A stretch of 64,000 nucleotides of DNA from NCBI GenBank assembly GCA_900110395.1, contig FODP01000007.1, positions 62,001 to 126,000 on the forward strand, given 5' to 3'. The DNA is from Rhodospirillales bacterium URHD0017. Lineage in GTDB: Bacteria > Pseudomonadota > Alphaproteobacteria > Reyranellales > Reyranellaceae. Position numbers and translations under genes: made by a program. Shown here piece by piece: positions 5,934-49,967 of this stretch (its first letter is position 1; every line of letters starts with the position of its first letter). The notes under the pieces are model-generated. The model saw only the letters and a list, made by a program, of their open reading frames with translations. It ran no database searches and was not told where the DNA came from.

Positions 5934-5937
5934 TGCC

Positions 5938-6011
5938 GGGAGCGCGCCACTCCGTGGCGCTCATGGAATGTGTGACCAGCAACAAGAAGCGCCACGGAGT
6001 GGCGCGCTCCC
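5938..6011. repeat. Palindromic intergenic element, CTCCAG family, copy A
   Basis: Two perfectly complementary 23-base arms (5938-5960 and 5989-6011) flank a 28-base loop. Each arm is itself a small hairpin (GCGCCAC-TCC-GTGGCGC). Both arms lack the same base at the centre (TCCG instead of TCCAG). The element fills the gap between the alpha/beta hydrolase and the ydcF-like gene and abuts the latter's start codon. Confidence 0.85.
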
Positions 6012-6015
6012 AGCA

Positions 6016-7923: not shown

Positions 7924-8001
7924 GCTGGGGGCGCGCGACTCCAGTCGCGCGTCATGCACTAGCGACCAAAGACCGCGCCACTGGAGTGGCGCGCCCCCAG
8001 C
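7924..8001. repeat. Palindromic intergenic element, CTCCAG family, copy B
   Basis: 27-base arms (7924-7950 and 7975-8001) match at 25 of 27 positions. The two mismatches between arms are compensatory within each arm: one arm has a GCGCGAC/GTCGCGC stem and the other GCGCCAC/GTGGCGC, around CTCCAG or CTGGAG centres. It sits just after the methyltransferase stop and may also terminate transcription. Confidence 0.85.
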
Positions 8002-31100: not shown

Positions 31101-31156
31101 CGGAGCGCGGACCTCCAGGTCCGCAATCATGAGCGGACCTGGAGGTCCGCGCTCCG
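31101..31156. repeat. Palindromic intergenic element, CTCCAG family, copy C
   Basis: Perfectly complementary 24-base arms (31101-31124 and 31133-31156) are separated by 8 bases. Each arm folds as GCGGACCT-CC-AGGTCCGC or its complement. The sequence TTGC precedes the left arm, as in other copies. It fills the space between convergent rmuC and htpX and could terminate both. Confidence 0.85.
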
Positions 31157-44942: not shown

Positions 44943-45118
44943 CGGACCGCGGGCCTCCAGGCCCGCTCATGATTCAGGTTCCTCTCCCCCGCTAGGGGGA
45001 GAGGTTAGGTGAGGGGGAATCGACGTGCATAGCCCCCTCACCCAGCCTCTCCCCCTAACGGGGGAGAGGAGCATGACGAAGAGCATGAGCATGAGCGGGC
45101 CTGGAGGCCCGCGGTCCG
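44943..45118. repeat. Palindromic intergenic element, CTCCAG family, copy D, with nested insert
   Basis: Perfectly complementary 28-base arms (44943-44970 and 45091-45118) contain GGGCCTCCAGGCCC and its complement. The loop is 120 bases because it holds another palindrome family at 44981-45069. TTG precedes the left arm, as in other copies. It lies between the receptor and ATPase genes of the ABC operon. Confidence 0.85.
44981..45069. repeat. CTCTCCCCC palindrome inside copy D
   Basis: 37-base arms (44981-45017 and 45033-45069) match at 34 of 37 positions. Each arm carries CCTCTCCCCC-(G)YTA-GGGGGAGAGG, the same unit as the single hairpin at 12354-12395. It occupies most of the loop of the outer CTCCAG element. 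Confidence 0.8.
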
Positions 45119-45126
45119 CATGACTG

Positions 45127-46080
45127 CTACTTCTTGCCCTGCCTATCCTTCAGCTCGGTCCAGAAGGCATCGACGTTGCTCTTGTCGATGATCTTGGTCG
45201 GCACAATGATCAGCTTGTTGGCCGGGATGAACGACTTGTCGCCCTCGAGGTACTTCGCCAGGTCCTTCATGCCCTGGTAGCCCCACTCGTAGGGCTGCTG
45301 CACGACGGTGCCGACGATGGTGCCGTCCTTCACACCGCCCAGGGTGATCGGGTCCTCGTCGAAGCCGATGATCGTCACCTTGCCGATCTTGCCGGCATCT
45401 TTCAGCGCCTCGTAGATGCGCGGGGTGTTGTAGGAATAGAAGCCGACCATGCAGTTGATCTCGGGACGCGCCGTGATCGTGTCCTCGACGTTGCGCTTGG
45501 CGCGCGTCTGGTCGATGTCGTCGGCGCGCACGTCGACAAGCTCGATCTTGGAACCCTTGATGGTCTCCTTGACGCCCTCGATGCGCTCGCGCGCATTGTC
45601 GGCGCCGGGCAGGCCGACGAAGCCCATGCACTTGCCGCCGTTGGGCATCGCCTTCAGCATCAGCTGGCCAGCCTGCTTGCCGGCATCGACGTTCGAGGAG
45701 CCGATATAGACCACGCGCTTGCTGTTGGGCGCGTCGCTGTCGGTGGTGAACAGGGCGACCTGGCCGCCGACGCGGTTCAGCGCGTCGCCCATGGTCTTGG
45801 GATCGACCGCACTCACCATGATGCCGGCGACGCCGGCCGCGACGAGGTCGTCCATGATGCGGGTCTGGATGGCCGCCGACGATTGCTCGGGATACTTGAA
45901 CACCAGGGTGTAGTTCGGCAGCTCGGTCTGCGCCTTCTTCACGCCGGCCTCGGCCGCCTTCCAGAAATCGGAGGCGCCGTTGACCACGAAGGCCAGGGTC
46001 TTCTTGTTCTGCGATTGCGTGGTGCCGGCAAGGCCCAGCAGGGCGGCGGTGACGGCAGCGGTAGCCAACAGCTTTTTCAC
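45127..46080 (-). CDS. Sugar ABC transporter periplasmic receptor (RbsB type)
   Basis: The 317-residue product starts at GTG 46080 with GGGAGGAC upstream. A signal peptide (LLATAAVTAALLGLAGTTQS) precedes a type I periplasmic binding fold: TLAFVVNGASDFWKAAEAGVKKAQ, GIMVSAVDPKTMGDALNRV, and GKVTIIGFDEDPITLGGVKDGTIVGTVVQQPYEWGYQG, the last being the usual hinge and C-lobe segment. It delivers a sugar or sugar-like ligand to the RbsAC complex. It is first in the operon; the 104-base region upstream carries no other gene that I accept. Confidence 0.9.
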   Translation of the reverse strand: MKKLLATAAVTAALLGLAGTTQSQNKKTLAFVVNGASDFWKAAEAGVKKAQTELPNYTLVFKYPEQSSAAIQTRIMDDLVAAGVAGIMVSAVDPKTMGDALNRVGGQVALFTTDSDAPNSKRVVYIGSSNVDAGKQAGQLMLKAMPNGGKCMGFVGLPGADNARERIEGVKETIKGSKIELVDVRADDIDQTRAKRNVEDTITARPEINCMVGFYSYNTPRIYEALKDAGKIGKVTIIGFDEDPITLGGVKDGTIVGTVVQQPYEWGYQGMKDLAKYLEGDKSFIPANKLIIVPTKIIDKSNVDAFWTELKDRQGKK

Positions 46081-46183
46081 GATCGTCCTCCCTCTCTCTG
46101 TTTCAGCAGGTCGAGCTTTTCGGACGCCGATGAGACCGTCAATCCGCCGGGACAGGAGGGGAGATATGCAGACGAGGACTTCA

Positions 46184-46537
46184 CTAGAGCTGATAGTACA
46201 GTCCGCCGCAGAGGCCGATCGCCATCAGGCCGAGGCCGAAAAACTTGAAGAAGCGGGCCGACTGGATCGCCAGTGACTGCTCGTGGCGAACGGACTGGCG
46301 TTGCTCGGCCGTGAGGTCTTGCTGTGCCCTGAGCTGCGCGCCGAGGAAGCTGGTCGCGAGACTGCTGCCGACCGGCCGATCGCCATCGAGCTCGAACTGG
46401 GCGCCGACATAGCAGATGACGAGGCCGATGAAGGCCACGCCGAAGAAGCTCAGGTAGGCGACGATGAAAAAGGCAACGACCGCCGCCAGCAGCCAGGCTG
46501 AAAGGGCGATGGCCATGAGGATCGATCGAGCGGACAC
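46184..46537 (-). CDS. Small membrane protein of unknown function
   Basis: The 117-residue product starts at GTG 46537; ATG 46516 is an alternative seven codons downstream, and neither has a strong ribosome-binding site. Two N-terminal transmembrane helices (about 5-25 and 28-46), a polar middle with a possible short coiled coil (QLRAQQDLTAEQRQSVRHEQ) and a C-terminal helix (FFKFFGLGLMAIGLCGGLYY) are visible. I do not recognise a family. It sits between the ABC receptor and the aminotransferase on the same strand. Confidence 0.6.
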   Translation of the reverse strand: MSARSILMAIALSAWLLAAVVAFFIVAYLSFFGVAFIGLVICYVGAQFELDGDRPVGSSLATSFLGAQLRAQQDLTAEQRQSVRHEQSLAIQSARFFKFFGLGLMAIGLCGGLYYQL

Positions 46538-46561
46538 GCCCGATCGTATCCGGGATGGTTG

Positions 46562-47885
46562 CTAAGCCAAAGCGTCGTCCAGCGCGCTGCCCAGGCGATC
46601 GACGATCTCGCCGATCTCGGCTTCGGTGACGATGAAGGGCGGCGCCAGCAGCACATGGTCGCCCTGTGTGCCGTCGATCGTGCCCCCCCATGGGATAGAC
46701 CATCAGGCCGCGCGCCATGGCCGCCTTCTTGACCCGTGCATGGAGCTTTTTAGCCGGATCGAACGGGGCCTTAGTTGAACGCTCTTCGACGAGCTCGATC
46801 GCCTGGAACAGGCCGCGGCCGCGGATGTCGCCGACATGCGGGTGATTGCCGAAGCGCTCGCCGAGCCGGCGGCGCAGCAGCGCACCCTGGATGCGCACAT
46901 TGGCCAAAAGGTTGTCGCGCCGGATCGTCTCCTGCACGGCGAGACCGGCGGCGCAGGCCATGGGATGGCCCATGTAGGTGTGGCCGTGCTGGAAGAAGCC
47001 GCTGCCGTTCGCGAACGATTCGTAGATATGCCGGCCCAGCAGCACGGCGCCGATCGGCTCGTAGCCGCCGCCCAGGCCTTTTGCGATCGTCATGAGGTCC
47101 GGCGCCATGCCTTCCTGCTCGCAGGCATGCAGGGTGCCGGTGCGGCCCATGCCGCACATCACCTCGTCGAGGATCAGCAGCACGCCGTGGCGATCACAGA
47201 TCTCGCGGATGCGCTTGAAGTAGCCCTTGGCCGCCGGCACGGTGCCGGCGGTGGCGCCGACGACGGTCTCGGCGACGAAGGCCATCACCGTGCCTTCGCC
47301 CAGCTCGAGGATCCTGGCTTCGAGCGCGTTGGCGGCGCGACGGCCATACGCCTCTTCGCTTTCGCCCGGCTCCTGGAAACGGTAGGCGAAGCAGGGCGCG
47401 ATGTGGTGCGTCTCGATCAGCAGCGGCGAGAAGGGCGCGCGGCGCCATTCGTTGCCGCCGGCCGCGAGCGCGCCCAGCGTGTTGCCGTGATAGCTCTGGC
47501 GGCGGGCGATGACGTGGCGGCGCTTGGGCTCGCCGCGCTCGATGAAGTACTGCCGCGCCATTTTCAACGCGGCCTCGATCGCCTCGGAGCCGCCGCTCAC
47601 CAGGTAGGCGTGGCTGATGCCTTGGGGGGCGTCGGCGATCAGCCGGTCGGCGAGCTTTTCCGCGACCTCGGTGGTGAAGAAGCCGGTGTGGGCGTAGGCG
47701 AGGCGGTCGAGCTGCTCGTGCAGCGCGGCCGTCACCGCCGGATGGCCGTGGCCGAGGCAGGACACCCCCGCGCCGCCCGAGGCATCGAGGTAGCGCTTGC
47801 CCGTACTGTCGACGATCTCGAGGCCGCTGCCGCCCGCGGCGACAGGAAGCGTGCCGCCGATCTGGCGGTGCAGGATGTGGGTCAT
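46562..47885 (-). pseudogene. Class III aminotransferase, frameshifted in a G7 tract
   Basis: PLP-dependent omega-aminotransferase of about 440 residues. From ATG 47885 the fold is intact: GGSGLEIVDSTGKRYLDASGGAGVSCLGHGHP, LVSGGSEAIEAALKMARQ, LILDEVMCGMGRTGT and the PLP lysine in MTIAKGLGGGYEPIG. After GLMVYPMGG, a run of seven G on the coding strand (46683-46689 complement) shifts the frame. With six G it would continue GTIDGTQGDHVLLAPPFIVTE and end at TAG 46562. As it stands the frame runs far past. It may be a pseudogene, a slippage switch or a read error. An RpiR regulator lies upstream on the same strand. Confidence 0.75.
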
Positions 47886-47889
47886 GTCA

Positions 47890-48020
47890 TTGCCGGGAGC
47901 GCGGCACTCCAGTGCCGCTCATGGGGTGTTGGATGAGAGAGATGATGCGCCACTGGACCTGCCTGCGCGAAGCCGAAGCGGCTTCGCTTCGGCGAAGGCA
48001 GGGTGGCGCGCTCCCGGCAA
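47890..48020. repeat. Palindromic intergenic element, CTCCAG family, copy E, interrupted
   Basis: The left arm TTGCCGGGAGCGC... (47890-47923) matches a right arm ending ...GCGCTCCCGGCAA at 48020. The right arm is split by a 45-base palindrome at 47958-48002; removing it restores GCGCCACTGGAGTGGCGC exactly. The left arm carries GCGGCACTCCAGTGCCGC, so one base pair differs between arms in a compensatory way. It lies between the RpiR regulator and the aminotransferase. Confidence 0.85.
47958..48002. repeat. 45-base palindrome inserted at the tip of a CTGGAG hairpin
   Basis: The insert begins CCTGCC and ends GGCAGG, with inner GAAGCCGAAGC/GCTTCGCTTCGGC pairing. It interrupts copy E between CACTGGA and GTGGCGCG, with no target-site duplication and no lost base. 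Confidence 0.75.
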
Positions 48021-48030
48021 AGAAACATGA

Positions 48031-48915
48031 TCAGCGTCCGTTGCGGCGGGGCAGGTGGACGCCGAAGGCAGCGAGCTGCGCCTCGGTGTGCTCCAGCGCG
48101 GCCAGCGCCTTGGCGCCGCCGCGGCCGGCCACGAGCGCGGCCAGGATCTCAGCCACGGCCAGGAGCGGCGTCATCGTGTGGAAGAAGGACGGGCTCGCCG
48201 TCGCCACCAGGATCGTGTTGCTGGCGATCTGGGCAAGCGGCGAGACCTCCGAATCGGTGAGCGCCACGACCGGCACGTCGCGCTCGGCCGCGTAACGCGC
48301 CGCCTCGATGGTGGCGCGGGCGTAAGGCTCGACGCTGGCGACCAGCAGGGCGTCCGCCTTGCCGGCATCGCGGATGGCGTCGAGGCCGGTGCCGCCGGCA
48401 TCGTCCAGCATCACCGTCTTGTCGCCGAGAAGCGACAGCATGTAGTGGAAATGCCAGGCGGCGGCGTGGCACGACCGCAGGCCGAGGCAATAGACGCGCC
48501 GCGCCTCGTGCAAGCGGCTCGCCGCGTCGGCCAGGCGATCGAGCGCCGCCGGCTCGGCCAGTGCCGCGATCTGGCGCGACAGTGCGGTCGCCATCTCGGC
48601 CGCCAGCGCGCGCTCGCCATGCAGGGCCTGCGCCTCGACCTGCACGCCCGCCTTGCCGGCAAAGCCCAAGGTGCCGGCGCGCACCGCCCCGGCATAGAGC
48701 TCGCGCACGGTGTCGTAGCCGTCGAGGCCGAGTCGCTTGGCCAGCCGCGTCATGGTGGCGGGCGGCACGCCGGCGCGCCGCGCCTGCTCGCGCATCGACA
48801 AGAGCGCCACGTCGTCGGGACGGTCGAGCATGTAGCGCGCGGCCGTCTGCAGCTGCGGCGGCAGGAGGTCGAACGCCTCGACGATCGAGGCGTTGAGCGG
48901 GCCCTTGGGTTCCAT
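48031..48915 (-). CDS. MurR/RpiR-family transcriptional regulator
   Basis: The 294-residue product starts at ATG 48915 because GGAGA lies about eight bases upstream; ATG 48930 is a longer alternative. An N-terminal helix-turn-helix (residues about 1-80: DVALLSMREQARRAGVPPATMTRLAKRLGLDGYDTVRELY) is followed by a SIS sugar-phosphate-binding domain (RRVYCLGLRSCHAAAWHFHYML, ALLVASVEPYARATIEAARYA, VPVVALTDSEVSPLAQIASNTILV). It probably senses a phosphorylated sugar or amino sugar. The aminotransferase and ribose-type ABC operon lie on the same side, making them plausible targets. Confidence 0.9.
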   Translation of the reverse strand: MEPKGPLNASIVEAFDLLPPQLQTAARYMLDRPDDVALLSMREQARRAGVPPATMTRLAKRLGLDGYDTVRELYAGAVRAGTLGFAGKAGVQVEAQALHGERALAAEMATALSRQIAALAEPAALDRLADAASRLHEARRVYCLGLRSCHAAAWHFHYMLSLLGDKTVMLDDAGGTGLDAIRDAGKADALLVASVEPYARATIEAARYAAERDVPVVALTDSEVSPLAQIASNTILVATASPSFFHTMTPLLAVAEILAALVAGRGGAKALAALEHTEAQLAAFGVHLPRRNGR

Positions 48916-48938
48916 GCCCCTGTTCTCCATCCCGCGCC

Positions 48939-49967
48939 TCAGCGTAGCGGGATGGGGTACATCAGGCCACCCTTGGTCCACAGGCCATTGAGGCCGCGCG
49001 CCAGCTTGAGCGGGCTGCCCATGCCGACATTGCGCTCGTAGCTCTCGCCGTAGTTCCCGACCAGTTTGACGATGTTGTAGGCCCACTTCTCGTCGAGCTG
49101 CAGGGCCTTGCCGTTGCCCGGCTTCACGCCGAGGAAGCGCTGGACCAGCGCGTCGGTCGACTTCAGCTGTTCGTCGACATTGGCGGTGGTGATGCCGCGC
49201 TCCTCGGCCTCGAGCATGGCGAACAGCGTCCAGCGCACGACCGCGTTCCAGACATCGTCGCCGCGGCGCACGAACGGACCCAGCGGCTCCTTGGAGATCA
49301 GCTCGGACAGGATCATGTAGTCGCCCTGGCGGCCGCGCGTGGCCAGCGCCGACGCGAGTGCCGAGGAGTCCTGCGTGATGGCATCGCAGCGGCCGGCGAA
49401 GAACGCCTCGTACATCACGTCCTGGCTTTCGAACACGACCGGCTTGAAGGTCATGTTGCGGCTGCGGAACCAGCTCGCGACGTTGAACTCATGCGTCGTG
49501 CCCTGGGCGACGCAGATCGTGGCGTTGTTGAGCTCGGCGAGCCCCTTCACGCCGAGCTTCTTGGACACCATGAAGCCCTGGCCGTCGTAGAAGTTGATGC
49601 CGGAATATTGCAGGCCGAGCCCGGCGTCGCGCTCGAGGGTGATGGTCGAGTTGCGCACCAGCATGTCGATCTCGCCCGACTGCAGGGCGAGGAAGCGCTG
49701 CTGGGCCGACAGCGGCACGTACTTGGCCTTGGTCGCATCGCCGAACACGGCGGCGGCCACGGCGTTGCACATGTCGATGTCGAGGCCTGACCACCTGCCC
49801 TGGCTGTCAGGCAGCGAGAACCCGCCCAAGCCGACATTGACGCCGCAGATCACCTGGCCGCGCTTCTTCACGGCCTCAAGGGTCGAGGGCGTCTGGGCCG
49901 AGGCGGTGGTGAAAGTGAAGGCGCCCAGCAGGGCGCCGGCGACGAGCAGGCGTTTGAGGATGGTCAT
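48939..49967 (-). CDS. Amino-acid ABC transporter periplasmic receptor (AapJ type)
   Basis: The 342-residue product has a signal peptide (LLVAGALLGAFTFTTASAQ) and a type II periplasmic binding fold in the general L-amino-acid receptor branch: TLEAVKKRGQVICGVNVGLGGFSLPD, WSGLDIDMCNAVAAAVFGD, AQQRFLALQSGEIDMLVRNSTITLERD. The C-terminus NYGESYERNVGMGSPLKLARGLNGLWTKGGLMYPIP is the usual AapJ tail. No permease or ATPase follows, so it is an orphan receptor. It is transcribed ahead of the RpiR gene with a 23-base gap. Confidence 0.92.
   Translation of the reverse strand: MTILKRLLVAGALLGAFTFTTASAQTPSTLEAVKKRGQVICGVNVGLGGFSLPDSQGRWSGLDIDMCNAVAAAVFGDATKAKYVPLSAQQRFLALQSGEIDMLVRNSTITLERDAGLGLQYSGINFYDGQGFMVSKKLGVKGLAELNNATICVAQGTTHEFNVASWFRSRNMTFKPVVFESQDVMYEAFFAGRCDAITQDSSALASALATRGRQGDYMILSELISKEPLGPFVRRGDDVWNAVVRWTLFAMLEAEERGITTANVDEQLKSTDALVQRFLGVKPGNGKALQLDEKWAYNIVKLVGNYGESYERNVGMGSPLKLARGLNGLWTKGGLMYPIPLR

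Follow-up and report, generated by a model that had tools for sequence, protein, structure and literature searches.

Small palindromes that sit inside other palindromes have been described before, and the closest systems are given here as excerpts of the cited papers present them. REPs lying within palindromes were reported in three species, GTAG-23 of T. roseum was found inside small palindromes of the form CCGSSCC(n3,4)GGSSCGG, and CGTC REPs are said to have no dedicated transposase (Di Nocera and others, PMC3733652). For the TnpAREP of E. coli, bulged palindromes are substrates and the bulge is required, the choice of cleavage site varies between systems, and the dissemination of REPs is termed poorly understood (Corneloup and others, PMC8266576). 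REPs are also the targets of IS elements, namely ISPpu9, ISPpu10, ISPsy8 and ISRm22 (Tobes and Pareja, PMC1525189), and yeast mitochondria harbour a 42-nt mobile palindrome, the GC cluster GC42 (Wu and Hao, PMC4478555). The excerpts of the literature on REPs, REP-targeting IS elements and mobile palindromes contained no description of the unit reported below, and four of its sequence strings matched no paper of the literature searched. Small dispersed repeats of cyanobacteria are reportedly the subject of work by Elhai from 2008 on very small mobile repeats in bacteria. IS200/IS605 elements, as used for comparison here, have two subterminal hairpins and a fixed target of 4-5 nt.

The stretch of DNA analysed (the window, 64,000 nt) lies in a genome of 8.18 Mb in 62 contigs from the genus group of Reyranella soli. 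As described in the first-pass annotation, which proved right in both position and sequence, a 45-nt imperfect palindrome (hereafter the unit) splits the right copy of a REP hairpin, and the features of this REPIN are as follows:

47886..48030, no strand: REPIN-holding space between the minus-strand ORFs 46077-47885 and 48031-49086 (ORF list)
47893..47923, minus strand: the REPIN's partner REP, intact, CCGGGAGCGCGGCACTCCAGTGCCGCTCATG (inverted repeat I11)
47947..47957, plus strand: 5' portion of the split REP, with arm GCGCCAC and loop TGGA (sequence; intact in L240 and L241)
47958..48002, plus strand: the 45-nt unit, very probably a mobile palindrome, a 19-bp hairpin with a 3-nt loop (sequence, DNA fold, other copies)
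48003..48018, plus strand: 3' portion of the split REP, with arm GTGGCGC and tail GCTCCCGGC (sequence; comparison with L240 and L241)

The ORFs around the REPIN are predicted frames, with overlapping plus-strand ORFs present too, and the arms of I11 span 47887-47907 and 48003-48023. The unit abuts CGCCACTGGA on its left (last base 47957) and GTGGCGCG on its right (first base 48003). Its palindrome is irregular: C17 and G34 each form a one-base bulge, and G8 and A38 are mismatched. The folding energy of the single strand is -18.4 kcal/mol (z of -4.3 against shuffles), while the host hairpin formed by the GCGCCAC arm and the TGGA loop, with the unit left out, reaches -9.0 kcal/mol in DNA folding. 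Scanning the window against Rfam at gathering scores returned no family. A further REPIN at 44943-45118 has a different palindrome in its middle (CCTCTCCCCC...GGGGGAGAGG, 44974-45076), and more REP pairs of the same host type, all intact, lie at 5934-6015, 7924-8001 and 31101-31156.

The unit had been placed exactly at the apex of the host hairpin. The hairpin is indeed interrupted, but the insertion occurred where the 4-nt loop TGGA ends on its 3' side, two bases off the geometric apex. The accompanying claim, that removing the unit restores the arm with neither target duplication nor base loss, held. I found the right REP without the unit in L240 (G039) and L241 (G027), where it reads CGCCACTGGA/GTGGCGCGCTCCCGGC, also given as CGCCACTGGA/GTGGCGCGCTCC (the slash marks the insertion point here and below), and the window carries 45 additional nt exactly at this point, with zero bases doubled and zero lost. 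Having two orthologous empty sites polarises the change as an insertion. These sites came from a DNA search with the 1.4 kb around the unit, which matched both flanks in relatives; in L242-L244 the region was absent, unalignable or occupied by other repeats. Elsewhere in the region, L240 differs by a one-base gap ~20 bases downstream, and L241 by a separate 21-nt insertion in the partner REP, which contains GGTCGCGGATTACCGCGACC, is itself palindromic and lies close to the loop of that REP. For another insertion site, L004, the counterparts L263 and L264 were also without the unit, and their repeats have diverged. Because the uninterrupted hairpin had 83 matches in the unit's own genome at up to three mismatches (none for the reversed pattern; one or more hairpins counted on both strands), the empty hairpin is the normal state.

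Searching for the unit itself gave five copies in its own genome (one mismatch at the most). Across the 65 genomes of the genus, nine held a total of 82 matches (reversed-pattern control 0; one site counted on both strands), and an exact scan of a genome contig collection gave 74 stretches. These copies contradict the possibility that the palindrome is found only at this locus. Seven genus genomes had two or more matches (range 2-24) and are the main carriers, led by the named strain R. soli NBRC 108950 with 24, and G028 and G054 had one weak match each. The 74 stretches of the exact scan fell into 22 genomes by accession prefix, six of them in the genus (46 stretches) and 16 further carriers (28 stretches), whose record titles name Pelagibius, Xanthobacteraceae, Hyphomicrobiaceae, Hyphomicrobiales, Rhodospirillaceae, Rhodospirillales, Alphaproteobacteria and Proteobacteria; 14 of these 16 are separate from the 65 genus genomes. 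Viral contigs (exact pattern), plasmids and phages gave no match to the unit. Being a small palindromic repeat with multiple copies per genome (45 nt, 2-24 per main carrier), the unit resembles a REP in this respect, and many REP families have hundreds of copies, more than this unit.

The copies were highly uniform. Among 107 non-redundant copies of 45 nt, 51 were identical to that in the window, 90 had at most one mismatch and 101 at most three, in searches that tolerated few mismatches and that more diverged copies would escape. The irregularities were kept as well, with C17 in 107 of the 107, G34 in 105 and no Watson-Crick pair at 8/38 in 104, so that the features distinguishing the unit's two strands are conserved. 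Left-end-only matches were considered as possible full-size autonomous elements ending like the unit (CCTGCCTGCGCGAAGCC...TTCGGCGAAGGCAGG), and no right end was seen in the stretches examined around them; these candidates (L091, L106, L108, L109 and L125 among the matches listed) were rejected, as they resemble truncated remnants. The unit also occurs in 75-nt versions with 30 nt at its own apex (L089, L107, L139, L126): the first three, from three genomes, lie in frame near the start of a permease gene, which I take to encode a PotI-like ABC permease, and that in L126 lies in a REP loop and has an unrelated 30-nt interior. The insertion in L033 and L109 is apparently common to two species and has decayed by deletion to ~20 nt in G025; loss is therefore imprecise.

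Insertion sites were then compared in a set of 110 non-redundant sites chosen for having both unit ends, leaving out L019 (odd context), L170 (flank reads N), truncated copies without both ends, and the 75-nt copies within the coding gene (L089, L107, L139). They fell into the following classes:

REP loops, [T]GGA/arm: 41 of 110 sites
REP foot, GGA/CCGCG: 7 of 110 sites
CATCCCGA/: 8 of 110 sites
CCTCCG/ beside a hairpin: 16 of 110 sites
Remaining genus sites: 11 of 110
Further-carrier sites: 27 of 110

The first-pass annotation had proposed counting how often the unit sits at CTGGAG or CTCCAG tips, and TGGA-type REP loops are the commonest class, but the other classes exist beside them. The targets include the hairpin CACTGGAGTG and the palindrome GTCATTCCCG/CGGGAATGAC, the latter entered dead-centre at the further-carrier site L168 (GTCATTCCCG/unit/CGGGAATGAC), and loop insertions at further-carrier sites include L186 (GCGCCCCTA/unit/TCGGGGCGC) and L213 (GCCCGCT/unit/TCGGCGGGC). 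Overall, insertion is precise, nothing being duplicated or lost, and the targets are hairpin-forming repeats already present, from many families. Its ends were exact at 107 of the 110 sites, a share partly due to selection for both ends, and 54 of the 110 insertions were intergenic against 10% expected under a crude ORF mask. In L076/L178 of R. soli, the unit and its REP now form one exact palindrome from which the TGGA loop is gone, as if arm had been copied onto arm.

Most junctions carry a GA: the dinucleotide stands directly 5' of the point at 65 of the 110 sites and TC directly 3' at 25, with either or both at 89 compared to 315/2290 in the background. Split by group, GA or TC was present at 40/41 REP loops, 36/42 of the genus sites outside REP loops and 13/27 of the further-carrier sites. 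Neither was present at 21 of the 110 sites, and there is therefore no fixed guide-type site. Orientation was fixed at REP loops, whose 3' loop edge is the insertion point: all 41 units lay one way and 0 in reverse under a mirrored rule that permits both. With GA as the reference, units at REP loops and units at CCTCCG/TCGG targets point in opposite directions. Matches indicative of a target duplication (TSD) had length zero at 84 of the 110 sites (76%, background 66%) and 4 nt at two (1.8%, background 0.2%); TSD lengths are close to background, without duplication above it. Finally, the flank had 0 bases in common with the opposite unit end at 60 of the 110 sites, and a constant core dinucleotide was absent.

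Folding the emptied targets gave z values of -1.70 for REP loops (n=41), -1.69 for other genus sites (n=42) and -1.78 for further carriers (n=26), compared to -0.05 to -0.19 for random points in the same loci and -0.15 to -0.42 for intergenic points, the latter based on the crude ORF mask. All six p-values (three groups against random and against intergenic points) were between 2e-10 and 3.4e-6, with every insertion treated as an independent event even where several hit one REP family. The possibility that most copies sit at unrelated sites with no hairpin was thus not borne out, as all three groups lie near -1.7 and the controls between -0.05 and -0.42. For the 42 other genus sites, the raw energy gain was weak (p 0.03). 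Stems of at least 7 bp centred on the point were found at 36/110 sites against 167/2290 intergenic points (Fisher 7e-14), an excess that stems from REP loops alone, which had them at 30/41 sites, compared to 3/42 and 3/27 for other genus sites and further carriers.

The exact position of the point within the fold was less uniform. In the MFE structures, it lay in a hairpin loop at 50 of the 110 sites (controls 26%, GGA/CGA points 28%), in an internal loop at 21, a stacked pair at 25, a multiloop at one and the exterior at 13, and the mean number of enclosing pairs at the points was not raised (7.9 against 9.0 in the control). The first-pass reading of a mobile palindrome that targets hairpins is supported, with the limit that fewer than half of the points lie in an apical loop. 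The pooled pairing probability, which is driven by REP loops, was 0.36-0.39 at positions -3..-1 and 0.61-0.79 at +1..+4, with the control near 0.53. REP loops went from 0.11-0.15 to 0.80-0.87, a partly circular result as the class is defined by 3-4 unpaired loop bases, and further carriers showed a dip to 0.31-0.38 at -1..+2 with paired flanks on both sides. At the 42 other genus sites, pairing was 0.36-0.40 further left, 0.62 at -1 and 0.61-0.77 on the right side, and the point therefore coincides with the beginning of a stem or lies close to it, rather than in a loop.

A gene match for an enzyme of the Y1 type (Y1_Tnp, PF01797) was present in 33 of the 65 genus genomes and in all seven main carriers, with 1-5 genes each; the chance of seven in seven is ~0.006, and carriers have larger genomes. 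The weak-match genomes had one Y1 gene (G028) and none (G054). Among the 14 further carriers, whose genome completeness is uncertain, only three had a match to Y1_Tnp or to a RAYT profile built from seven Reyranella proteins. The unit's own genome has one Y1 match (G000:C13), an open frame with NHVH that runs for 195 codons from stop to stop (L161, 1880-2467). Two perfect REP hairpins accompany it, the first lying 15 nt beyond one end of the frame and the second overlapping the other end. The recurrent flanking repeat of Y1 loci was this host REP, seen beside several Y1 genes, and both unit ends occurred within 300 nt at 0 of 50 Y1 loci (a part of the genus's Y1 genes, with some duplicates of one). 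Any RAYT moving the unit would therefore act in trans. The IS200/IS605-like mechanism that the first-pass annotation had put forward is plausible, but no enzyme was tied to the unit.

Compared to REPs and REPINs with their RAYT, which in the excerpts cited above likewise include tiny palindromes inside palindromes that also exist empty, the unit has no constant GTAG or CGTC tag, its stem reaches both ends so that the flanks come from the target, and no Y1 locus examined was flanked by the complete unit in the way a RAYT gene is flanked by its repeat. It is moreover nearly invariant across many genomes, with several unrelated target families and orthologous empty sites. With IS200/IS605 and their derivatives, the unit shares the hairpin, the absence of target duplication, a short 5' motif at many sites and, at REP loops, a fixed orientation, whereas it consists of one hairpin where those elements have two subterminal ones, enters hairpin-rich targets without a fixed 4-5 nt sequence, and has no tnpA tied to it. 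The excerpts on ISPpu9, ISPpu10, ISPsy8 and ISRm22 likewise describe REPs targeted at a preferred position, but REP-targeting IS elements have transposase genes of their own, from families IS3, IS110, IS4, IS256 and IS5 (PMC1525189). GC42 is likewise a GC-rich proliferating palindrome of ~40 nt that merges with other palindromes and whose enzyme is not known, but it is mitochondrial, has a putative AG target duplication, and a hairpin-loop target is not reported in the excerpts of that paper (PMC4478555). Insertion of palindrome into palindrome is already on record for a few REP families, but these excerpts contained no near-invariant 45-mer that spans many genomes, enters several target families and has empty sites at orthologous positions.

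The reading that I favour, at a probability of roughly 0.6, is that of a nano-MITE: the 45-mer would be a mobile element of the non-autonomous kind that targets hairpins and travels as single-stranded DNA through the action of an HUH/Y1-type enzyme. That the unit is mobile and prefers hairpin-forming targets is very probable, and the HUH/Y1 mechanism, with its enzyme deduced from genome content, is on balance probable. A Y1/HUH transposase supplied in trans, most plausibly a RAYT in the genus, would cut and join the unit's folded single strand, and the target would likewise be read as a folded single strand, either as an extruded hairpin or on the lagging-strand template. The conserved bulges would let the enzyme tell apart the strands of a near-palindrome, and recognition of the near-palindrome in either strand would account for its opposite orientations relative to GA. 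Several observations stand against this explanation: the opposite orientation at CCTCCG/TCGG would not be expected of a strictly one-stranded element, 11/14 further carriers have no detectable Y1, the 50 Y1 loci have no complete unit, the 42 genus sites outside REP loops show no unpaired dip at the point and only a weak raw energy gain, long stems centred on the point exceed the control at REP loops alone, enclosing pairs are not raised in number, and 21/110 sites carry neither GA nor TC.

A different enzyme class, such as an IS110-like DEDD recombinase or a nuclease-ligase, which would recognise double-stranded palindromes or cruciforms, is possible but doubtful: the 11/14 further carriers in which Y1 was not found (of uncertain completeness) and the known REP-targeting IS elements of IS110 and four further families (PMC1525189, in excerpt) speak for it, and an asymmetric double-stranded site could fix orientation too, but the orientation of 41 against 0 at REP loops and the conserved strand asymmetry point to single strands. 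Nor did the junctions show a core dinucleotide common to both sides, as in IS110-type elements, with 60/110 sites sharing 0 bases and TSD lengths near background. DDE-type elements are expected to leave a TSD, and neither the empty sites nor the TSD lengths show the target site duplication of a DDE-type MITE. A further reading, also possible but doubtful, is a class of selfish palindromes of ~45 nt that choose their targets by hairpin structure more than by sequence, are moved by an enzyme other than the cognate RAYT of the host REPs, perhaps not a Y1 enzyme, and stay near-invariant in several groups of Alphaproteobacteria through transfer and the demands of that enzyme.

Replication template switching needs no transposase: on stalling at a hairpin, the polymerase would use a 45-mer located elsewhere as its template and then resume at the original site. 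It would fit targets rich in hairpins and seems to occur at such hairpins, given the perfected palindrome minus its loop in L076/L178; the exact-end share is also partly a selection effect, and truncated copies exist. It is nevertheless unlikely, as the identical 45-mer and its ends recur in many genomes with unrelated flanks. Even less likely is a unit that is itself immobile, its copies being old insertions that were inherited or carried along when REPs recombined: the apparent shared descent of L033/L109 and the 75-nt form in L089, L107 and L139 agree with it, but the orthologous sites are empty in two relatives, target families are unrelated and about half of the copies are identical. An assembly or adapter artefact might be suspected of a short hairpin in genomes many of which are MAGs, but it is extremely improbable given scan titles that are alphaproteobacterial or proteobacterial only, diverged copies, the 24 matches in R. 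soli NBRC 108950 and the orthologous empty sites.

The unit offers over 100 mapped insertions, a pair of empty sites at orthologous positions and a preference in its targets that is testable in vitro. If hairpins are the target, these natural insertions record palindromes exposed as hairpins in living cells, which are otherwise hard to measure. In L013, near 1648 on the minus strand, a 51-nt stretch of other sequence, palindromic at its ends (GGGACCTTCTCTC...GAGAGAAGGTCCC), follows GGA within a short stem and is perhaps another element with a similar habit, or chance.
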